DNA from: Hexactinellida sp. DTS-2022 | Taxonomy: Eukaryota; Porifera; Hexactinellida | Direction of reading: 5' to 3' | Length of the DNA stretch: 64,000 bases | Assembly: GCA_028753945.1 (NCBI GenBank) | Contig: JAPNXP010000013.1 | Coordinates: 372,001 to 436,000 of the forward strand | In this document: positions 12,944 through 14,795 of the stretch, one piece after another | How positions within the stretch are numbered: the first letter of the stretch is position 1 | How the letters are laid out: each line of letters opens with the position of its first letter | Translations under genes and position numbers: made by a program | Notes under the pieces: generated by a model | What the model was told of the DNA's origin: nothing | Databases searched by the model: none | The model's input: only the letters and a program-made list of their open reading frames with translations

Positions 12944-13393
12944 ATGGCTTTAAAACGAATAAAAAAGGAGTTACGAAATATGCTAGATAACCCAAGCGAG
13001 ATGGAGAAAGCAGAACTTTGGGCAGATGATGACATGTTCAAATGGGTTGGGACTATTTATGGGCCGAAGGGATCCCCTTATGAAAAGGGTGTGTTCTATG
13101 TGTGTATAATATTTCCACAGCAATATCCCTTTCGGCCTCCTAAAGTACATTTCACTACAAAAGTATTCCATCCCAACATTAACGAAAAGGGACAAATTAC
13201 CTTGGATATATTGTGTAATCAGTGGAGCCCAGCACTCACTATTGCTAAGATACTAATTTCTCTCTCTAGTCTGTTGAGTGATCCTAATTCTGTTGATGTT
13301 CTTGTCCCGGAAATAGCTAGACTATTCAAAGAAGACAGGTGCAAGTTTAACCAGACTGCCAAAGAGTGGACTCGCAAATACGCTAGTTTTTAG
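12944..13393 (+). CDS. UBE2D-like E2 variant, copy 1, catalytic Cys replaced by Thr
   Basis: The protein has 149 residues, the usual UBE2D length plus about two, starting [10 protein letters not shown] as UBE2D does (MALKRI). I chose the ATG at 12944 because the frame upstream has only a TTG. The UBC fold landmarks are present: [35 protein letters not shown] (FHPNINEKG), WSPALT, and C-terminal [10 protein letters not shown]. Where UBE2D has SICLDIL with the thioester cysteine, this reads QITLDIL (Thr86, codon 13199-13201). A cysteine occurs four residues later (DILCNQW) but is not the canonical site. By family knowledge it cannot form the normal ubiquitin thioester and may act as a UEV-like decoy or scaffold. 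The SPA E3-contact motif is retained. Confidence 0.85.
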
Positions 13394-13562
13394 AATTAAA
13401 TATAGATTTATTACAGTTTTTGCTACTACATTTATTACAGCACAAATTTCTGATTTTTTATTTTATCATTTGAGGAGTGTTTTGAAACTTTTGCGCTTTT
13501 CAACGAAAGTGTTATATCAGTTATTTATTGTATACTGAGATTTATTTTGAATTTAAGATAAG

Positions 13563-13608
13563 GCATTTTTGACGGTCCCCTTGTGTTCGTGCTAACGAGG
13601 TTCTACTG
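13563..13608. mobile_element. Tigger/pogo-like MITE right end, truncated
   Basis: Only the terminal approximately 45 bp remains: gacggtccccttgtgttcgt-gctaacgaggttctactg, followed by TA. It lies 40 bp upstream of the copy 2 ATG, so it may have been carried along by tandem duplication of the gene plus its upstream element. Confidence 0.75.
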
Positions 13609-13647
13609 TAGATTGAAATTGAATTATCCTTATAATTGTGTAGTCAG

Positions 13648-14097
13648 ATGGCTTTTAAACGAATAGAAAAGGAGTTACGAGATATACTAGATAACCCAAG
13701 CGAGACGGAGAAAGCAGAACCTTGGGCAGATGATGACATGTTCAAATGGGTTGGGACTATTTATGGGCCGAAGGGATCCCCTTATGAAGAGGGTGTGTTC
13801 TATGTGAGTATAATATTTCCACTGCAATATCCATTTCGGCCTCCTAAAGTACATTTCACTACAAAAGTATTCCATCCCAACATTAACGAAAAGGGACAAA
13901 TTTCCCTACATATATTACATGACTATTGGAGTCCAGCACTCACTATTGCTAAGATACTATCTTCTCTTTCTAGTCTGTTGAGTGACCCTGATCCTTTTGA
14001 TCCTCTTGTCCCGGTAATAGCTAAACTATTCAAAGAAGACAGGTGCAAGTTTAACCAGACTGCCAAAGAGTGGACTCTCAAATACGCTAGTTTTTAG
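13648..14097 (+). CDS. UBE2D-like E2 variant, copy 2, catalytic Cys replaced by Ser
   Basis: A tandem duplicate of copy 1 with the same 149-residue length, and nearly identical DNA over most of the frame and into the 3' flank. The start is the ATG in cagATGGCTTTT at 13648. HPN and WSPALT are kept. The catalytic position reads QISLHIL, with Ser86 encoded by tcc at 13903-13905, and the following aspartate is His. A serine could in principle carry an oxyester, but this is not the normal chemistry of the family. The C-terminus is KEWTLKYASF. It lies 254 bp after copy 1 and 250 bp before copy 3. Confidence 0.85.
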   Translation: MAFKRIEKELRDILDNPSETEKAEPWADDDMFKWVGTIYGPKGSPYEEGVFYVSIIFPLQYPFRPPKVHFTTKVFHPNINEKGQISLHILHDYWSPALTIAKILSSLSSLLSDPDPFDPLVPVIAKLFKEDRCKFNQTAKEWTLKYASF

Positions 14098-14327
14098 AAT
14101 TAAATATAGATTTATTACAGTTTGCTAGAATATATACCGACACAAATTTATGATTTGGTATTATATCATTTGAGGTTGTTTTAAAACTTTTTACGCTTGT
14201 CAAATGCAAGTGTTATATCAGTTATTTATTGTATACTGAGATTTATTTTGAAATTAAACCGTAACTAAAAGCAATGGATAAGAACTACAAGCTATTATTT
14301 AGATAAAACTATCCGTCCTATTGTGTA

Positions 14328-14795
14328 ATGGGGAACCGTGGTAGTCAGATGGCTTTTAAACGAATAAAAAAGGAGTTACGAGATATGCTAGATAACCCAA
14401 GCGAGATGGAGAAAGCAGAACTTTGGGAAGATGATGACATGTTCAGATGGGTTGGGACTATTTATGGGCCGAAGGGATCTCCTTATCAAGAGGGTGTGTT
14501 CTATGTGTGTATAATATTTCCACATCAATATCCATTTCTGCCTCCTAATGTACAATTCACTACAAAAGTATTCCATCCCAACATTAACGAAAGAGGAGAA
14601 ATTAACCTAGATACACTAGGTAACAACTGGAATTCAGGACTCACTGTTGCTAATATACTAACTTCTCTCTCTACTCTTCTAAGAGAACCTAATCCAGAAG
14701 ATGCTCTTGTCCCAGAAATAGCTGAACTATTCAAAGAAGACAGGTGTAAGTATAACCAGACTGCCAAGGAATGGACTCTCGAATACGCTAACTAA
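14328..14795 (+). CDS. UBE2D-like E2 variant, copy 3, catalytic Cys replaced by Asn
   Basis: The third tandem copy. The first ATG (14328) gives seven extra residues (MGNRGSQ) before the conserved MAFKRIKKEL at 14349; which start is used is undecided. HPN is kept (FHPNINERG). The thioester position is Asn (EINLDTL, codon 14604-14606). The SPA E3-contact motif has become NSG (WNSGLTVANIL), so this copy is the most diverged functionally. The frame is intact over 155 codons and ends KEWTLEYAN. No MITE end lies directly before this copy. Confidence 0.85.
   Translation: MGNRGSQMAFKRIKKELRDMLDNPSEMEKAELWEDDDMFRWVGTIYGPKGSPYQEGVFYVCIIFPHQYPFLPPNVQFTTKVFHPNINERGEINLDTLGNNWNSGLTVANILTSLSTLLREPNPEDALVPEIAELFKEDRCKYNQTAKEWTLEYAN

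Follow-up and report, generated by a model that had tools for sequence, protein, structure and literature searches.

A tandem triplet of UBE2D-like E2 variants without the catalytic cysteine in a hexactinellid sponge genome

Three UBE2D-like genes in tandem

We analyzed a window of 64,000 nucleotides (contig JAPNXP010000013.1, positions 372,001 to 436,000 of the forward strand) from the genome of Hexactinellida sp. DTS-2022, which comprises 112 Mb in 18 contigs (GCA_028753945.1). At positions 12944–14795 the window contains three E2 genes in tandem, all intronless and open from ATG to stop. The genes, their flanks and the neighboring repeat elements are as follows.

12825..12910, no strand assigned: diverged piece of an inverted-repeat element, upstream of copy 1; repeats D3, D5 and D6
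12944..13393, plus strand: copy 1, UBE2D-like E2 variant, 149 aa; Thr86; SPA kept; Cys91 (Arg90 in UBE2D)
13394..13567, plus strand: 3′ flank of copy 1 and 5′ flank of copy 2, within the tandem unit; its homologue separates copies 2 and 3; repeats D1, D2 and D4
13648..14097, plus strand: copy 2, UBE2D-like E2 variant, 149 aa; Ser86; His at residue 88 (Asp87 in UBE2D); SPA kept
14098..14266, plus strand: 3′ flank of copy 2 and 5′ flank of copy 3, corresponding to 13394..13567
14349..14795, plus strand: copy 3, UBE2D-like E2 variant, 148 aa; Asn86; SPA replaced by NSG
14912..15072, no strand assigned: short inverted-repeat element of a kind dispersed through the genome, directly downstream of copy 3; I2 arms

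The tandem unit is about 700 bp long, with repeat spacings of 704 and 701 bp. The start of copy 3 at 14349 is homologous to those of the other copies, and an in-frame ATG at 14328 would add 7 amino acids. Copies 1 and 2 share 85% amino acid identity, and the other two pairs 78% and 75%. A frame artefact was ruled out, as the frames are intact and differ from each other at many codons. Flank alignments between the copies are patchy; that of 13394..13567 with 14098..14266 resulted in 133 matches, 35 mismatches and 3 indels. The inverted-repeat element was found in at least 39 other places of the genome at 84–93% identity, plus weaker matches (40 of 2941 candidates were scored), and a remnant of it lies at 13567–13617, just upstream of copy 2. 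Scanning the whole window against Rfam gave no match at gathering scores.

Elsewhere in the window, in a CaMKII-like gene at 9443–10432, the DFG motif reads NFG (LANFGLAL), and the gene is possibly a catalytically altered duplicate near the triplet; it adjoins a second CaMKII-like gene at 11404–12444 with an intact DFG. Two frames at 45365–45739 and 57630–58004, about 12 kb apart, resemble tyrosine phosphatases and are nearly alike by eye. Between them lies a frame of 2615 aa (46468–54315), and a tandem duplication of a receptor phosphatase is possible. An array of 31.4 copies of the 5-base repeat AATAC (43196–43355) falls inside open frames of both strands.

The catalytic position and the fold

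Residue 86 of the copies corresponds to Cys85 of UBE2D, the shift being due to a single additional residue around position 26. The codons at this place are ACC (Thr) in copy 1, TCC (Ser) in copy 2 and AAC (Asn) in copy 3. The HPN motif is present in 3/3 copies and the thioester cysteine in 0/3. The SPA loop is intact in the first two copies, and NSG takes its place in copy 3. The initial annotation had described three intact E2 frames with Thr, Ser and Asn at residue 86, which the codons and the open frames confirm; its further statement on HPN, kept throughout, and on SPA, kept in the first two copies, agrees with the alignment.

All three proteins gave a full match to the Pfam model UQ_con, with E-values of 2.1e-45, 2.2e-45 and 1.5e-42 for copies 1, 2 and 3 (copy 2 was entered from its second codon and copy 3 with seven upstream residues). 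The Pfam UEV model reached 5.5e-4 and 20.2 bits, below its cut-off of 27, for one copy, and the other two were absent at E-values up to 0.001. In a PDB sequence search with copy 1, UBE2D2 came first at 1.5e-56, which excludes a chance likeness. The structure of copy 1 was modeled with a mean pLDDT of 94.3 from an alignment of 19 rows (an alignment of 4 rows gave 43.2). When this model was searched with Foldseek, 48 of the 50 listed rows were of the UBE2D/UbcH5 type by their titles or by the PDB search, with TM-scores of 0.94–0.97 over the model; the other two were a Toxoplasma E2 (row 25) and an E1-E2 complex with the E2 left unnamed in its title (row 42).

The triplet, which belongs to the E2 family and fold (modeled for copy 1), lacks the catalytic cysteine and has intact frames, has the make-up of a UEV in the broad sense and is a putative non-catalytic partner of an E2 or E3. 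It shares the E2 fold and the missing cysteine with the UEVs UBE2V/Mms2 and TSG101, but differs from them in matching UQ_con at 1.5e-42 or better with the UEV model below cut-off, a comparison made through Pfam. UBE2D (UbcH5, yeast Ubc4/5) is its nearest relative by PDB sequence search, by the fold of copy 1 and by a 19-row tree. The likeness covers sequence family, length, HPN and helix 1, as well as the SPA loop in copies 1 and 2, whereas the triplet differs in the absent thioester cysteine, one additional residue and the change of Ser22 to Lys.

The canonical UBE2D and the E2 set of the genome

The initial annotation had proposed looking for a canonical UBE2D with Cys85 in the same genome. 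Such a gene was found on a different contig, in a single frame and 89% identical to human UBE2D2, compared with 53–60% for the triplet. The triplet genes are therefore extra paralogues, and their identity to the canonical gene of the genome is 59% (copy 1), 58% (copy 2) and 52% (copy 3). Apart from the triplet, the genome search returned no long match above 42% to the canonical gene, that is, no further full-length UBE2D-like copy. Short pieces matching it at 43–53% over 34–64 residues were detected and may leave room for an intron-split relative.

A genome-wide search with UQ_con resulted in 55 matches. In the best 30 of the 55 the catalytic place holds Cys in 25 and lacks it in 5, and these five are the triplet, L038 (Thr) and L040 (Ser). 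In the 19-row E2 tree the triplet forms a group at 100/99 and joins the canonical UBE2D at 93/93, slightly below the level the tool marks with a star. A 17-row tree richer in UBE2D-like rows recovered the triplet at 100/100 and did not settle its position among those rows. As to the order of the copies, the 19-row tree weakly pairs 1 and 3 (83/69), the 17-row tree pairs none, and identity pairs 1 and 2.

The same genome also encodes large proteins that combine an E2 domain with a U-box. L047, L050 and L052 additionally contain vWA, L048 and L053 are without it, and L054 has an E2 domain and a U-box marginally under the cut-off. Among the six scanned proteins of this kind vWA was thus seen in three, and a ubiquitin-like domain in L047 alone; L049 and L051 are similar in appearance. 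HPN is replaced by HCN, with the cysteine kept, in seven E2 parts (L027, L028, L029, L030, L031, L034 and L035). A literature search for proteins joining vWA, U-box and E2 domains found no paper.

Timing of the cysteine loss

We compared Thr and Cys (codon TGC) as the ancestral residue of the triplet by codon likelihood, with branch lengths fixed from the maximum-likelihood fit and copies 1 and 2 set as a pair. The likelihood ratio of Thr over Cys was 3.6e4 at an omega of 0.75, 2.0e4 at 1, 1.9e3 at 3 and 108 at 10. Since the codon model favors a Thr ancestor, the cysteine was probably gone before the triplication. A loss that predates the duplications, as the initial annotation had suggested, is therefore well supported by the codon likelihoods. 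The alternative, a Cys ancestor with independent losses in the three copies, was disfavored at all four omega settings.

Synonymous sites between the copies and the canonical gene are saturated, with 91.0 of 97.0, 88.2 of 98.5 and 86.3 of 98.2 differing for copies 1, 2 and 3, which allows the loss to lie anywhere along the long stem. The copies have a GC3 of 0.32–0.38, compared with 0.63 for the canonical gene. We hold with high confidence that the triplet derives from UBE2D, was without the cysteine before it triplicated and has kept the family and the fold, the latter as modeled for copy 1.

Selection on the triplet

Of the 148 codons compared among the copies, 42 differ in amino acid and 11 are variable at synonymous positions only. 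The maximum-likelihood omega for the triplet branches was 0.75 with the canonical gene included (2ΔlnL of 1.03 against an omega of 1) and 0.73 without it (p = 0.26). Pairwise NG86 values were 0.47 for copies 1 and 3, 0.74 for copies 2 and 3 and 0.86 for copies 1 and 2. A fit with free branches gave 0.33 for copy 1, 6.84 for copy 2, 0.14 for the inner branch and 0.89 for copy 3, from too few changes to be relied on.

An omega indistinguishable from 1, together with the value of 0.86 for copies 1 and 2, speaks for the main rival to a functional reading of the triplet, namely that the copies are relaxed, decaying duplicates whose frames are still open by luck or are refreshed by gene conversion. 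Such decay would also fit the SPA loop gone from copy 3 and the fact that no two copies share a residue at the catalytic place. The state of the frames points the other way. Over at least 74 substitutions, 3.15 stops were expected under neutrality and none was seen (P = 0.043), and no indel was seen where 6.3 were expected by the ratio in the 3′ flank (9.6 when the 5′ flank is added), with P = 0.0018 for all indels and 0.015 when those that break the frame are counted alone. In addition, copies 1 and 2 are far more similar in their coding DNA (92.3% identity) than in the aligned 3′ flank (133/168, 79%). As their synonymous sites differ less (divergence 0.09) than the flank, gene conversion may refresh the frames; if it does, it would likewise erase stops and indels.

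Taken together, the open-frame, indel and flank data weakly suggest that the frames are maintained, short of proving function, and we regard decay as rather unlikely. The initial annotation had argued from intact frames to function. This holds weakly, in that frames free of stops and indels would be improbable under neutrality, and it is countered by an omega indistinguishable from 1. A dN/dS near 1 combined with no expression had been put forward there as the mark of pseudogenes, and the value of 0.73–0.75, being indistinguishable from 1, corresponds to the first half of that description.

Contact surfaces of the copies

We scored the triplet at the UBE2D positions assumed to be the contact sites for RING/U-box E3s, for the backside and for donor ubiquitin. 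The RING/U-box face is kept at 9 of 10 sites in copy 1, 9 of 10 in copy 2 and 6 of 10 in copy 3, and Phe62, a RING contact, is present in all three. Given the identities of 60% and 58% to UBE2D2, retention of nine sites has binomial probabilities of 0.032 for copy 1 and 0.026 for copy 2, in a weak test, limited by assumed sites that are conserved across E2s generally and by an equal 9/10 in two of the eight Pseudomonas homologues described below. At the backside 3 of 7 sites are kept in each copy, and Ser22, a ubiquitin contact there, is replaced by Lys in all three. The donor-ubiquitin contacts are kept at 7/9, 5/9 and 5/9 sites in copies 1, 2 and 3. Because these contacts are partly retained, the triplet might bind ubiquitin instead of an E3.

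We tentatively favor the reading that the triplet is a UBE2D-derived E2-variant family in which copies 1 and 2 would take the place of UBE2D on E3s but transfer no ubiquitin. Copy 3, which has lost the E3 loop, probably has another role or none.

Could the new residues still take up ubiquitin? UBE2D C85S forms an oxyester with ubiquitin, and Ser86 of copy 2, perhaps also Thr86 of copy 1, might be esterified stably with ubiquitin. Alternatively, Cys91 of copy 1 might substitute for the lost cysteine. Either way the proteins would trap ubiquitin, and the retained K4, R5 and K8 of helix 1 would suit such a trap. Asn in copy 3 would not, and neither would the His of copy 2 in place of Asp87 or the state of the donor contact Leu104, which copy 2 has changed to Ser and copy 3 to Thr. 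We consider this possibility very improbable.

Loops beside the former active site

The amino acid changes among the copies are unevenly spread. Variable sites make up 10 of 17 in the two loops beside the former active site (residues 85–92 and 113–121, set on structural grounds after the alignment had been seen) and 32 of 131 elsewhere, with p = 0.0075 by Fisher's test and 0.018 by block permutation. Such unevenness argues against decay. It is also the basis for the idea that the groove of the former active site is now a variable binding surface on which selection drives the copies apart, for instance through conflict with UBE2D-targeting proteins of microbes. Consistent with this, omega is 2.31 in the loops and 0.59 in the rest, a two-omega model improves on a single omega by a 2ΔlnL of 14.4, and the test against 1 gives p = 0.03 for the loops and p = 0.08 for the rest. 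However, the region was chosen after alignment, scans for clustered change that presuppose no region gave p-values from 0.023 to 0.144, and the data are three sequences. The acceleration of the loops is therefore a lead only, and a diversifying cleft as the main explanation of the triplet seems improbable to us.

Cysteine-less UBE2D relatives in other organisms

Plant COP10 descended from UBC4/5 (UBE2D). It is reported to enhance E2 activity (Yanagawa 2004). The UEV group of maize that nests within UBC4/5 is presumably the group of COP10. According to a maize E2 survey, COP10 is an E2 variant without the cysteine, and the UEV group is nested in UBC4/5 (PMC4659669), in line with that descent. 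In reviews, COP10 appears as an E2 variant with affinity for the RING domain of COP1 and as part of DET1-DDB1 complexes (PMC8024647), and it is classed as a UEV (PMC7215765). A literature search on COP10, UBE2D and UEV jointly found no paper.

The triplet resembles COP10, which was compared by description alone, in being a UBE2D-type E2 variant without the cysteine. COP10 is part of a DET1-DDB1 complex in plants, whereas the present case is an animal one, arranged as a tandem triplet and with a different residue in each copy. A COP10-like cofactor role, in which the variants would associate with an adaptor complex or with canonical E2s and raise rather than block ubiquitin transfer, draws on COP10 itself as a Cys-less E2 variant, on the maize group within UBC4/5 and on the reported enhancement of E2 activity; we give it a low probability.

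Scanning prokaryote genomes with the alignment resulted in two loci. One is a eukaryote-like gene with interruptions on a MAG contig. The second belongs to Pseudomonas japonica and encodes Gly where the catalytic cysteine would be:

NZ_FZOL01000001.1:402289-404723: P. japonica UBE2D-like gene (L056, identical with L058)

This gene adjoins a frame that, by eye, resembles a Lon-type protease. Among 298 genomes of the genus, P. japonica included, 6 contain UBE2D-like genes (7 genes). A profile of those 7 genes matched 8 of 398 genomes: 7 have full-length genes (8 genes), and the remaining match is a short, different E2-like sequence with the cysteine kept. In the class, 369 genomes were searched, and the two hits were P. 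japonica itself and a genome whose match is short and of a different kind; the three genome sets overlap.

The eight full-length Pseudomonas genes (L058–L064 and L067) are rare in the genus, and all lack the cysteine, with Gly in 6, Ala in 1 and Thr in 1. HPN is present in 8/8, and the proteins are 55–64% identical to UBE2D2. Like the triplet, they are UBE2D-like and Cys-less with HPN kept; unlike it, they are bacterial, and the two do not group together in the tree, whose deep branches are weak. Since they keep 5 to 9 of the 10 RING-face sites, have mostly lost Phe62 (5/8) and mostly kept Ser22 (7/8), the Pseudomonas group does not repeat the pattern of the triplet, which is the opposite at both residues, with Ser22 lost and Phe62 kept in all three copies. 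Thus, Cys-less UBE2D homologues persist in a second, bacterial setting. No relatives of the triplet were found in the viral contigs scanned, and copy 1 had no match among the phage records searched; the P. japonica protein gave a single partial match to plasmids (39.7% over 49% of the query).

The initial annotation knew of no UBE2D-derived UEV cluster. A lack of precedent for a Cys-less variant derived from UBE2D is not supported in light of COP10, of the maize UEV group within UBC4/5 and of the Pseudomonas homologues. With the triplet, a UBE2D-derived variant is newly seen as a tandem set in an animal, which does not make it a new category.

Discussion

Our preferred reading of the triplet as non-catalytic occupants of UBE2D sites implies the following course of events. 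A duplicate of UBE2D would have become very unlike the canonical gene, with its cysteine lost, and then triplicated as a unit of about 700 bp. Copies 1 and 2 would dock on RING/U-box E3s by the retained face of helix 1 and the loop, as far as the assumed contact sites define it. The triplet proteins would bind part of the partners of UBE2D, and ubiquitin transfer by the canonical enzyme would be blocked or tuned. We infer expression, E3 binding and competition; competition for RING E3s, as the initial annotation had proposed, is plausible.

The loop data could be joined to this reading: a dead UBE2D lineage would have triplicated, its cleft would be driven apart while two copies retain the docking face, and the result would be a small set of decoys docked on E3s, each with a cleft of its own. 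We think this fuller version unlikely. If it were true, the Pseudomonas homologues would be a second, separate use of a dead UBE2D.

UBE2D works with many RING and U-box E3s, and engineered UBE2D with Cys changed to Ser is a laboratory dominant negative. Natural non-catalytic look-alikes of UBE2D would offer a general means to dampen or redirect ubiquitin transfer. The Pseudomonas homologues indicate that Cys-less forms are also carried by some bacteria. A natural tandem set, in which an ancestral loss is shared and the later residues differ, would show evolution making such inhibitors.
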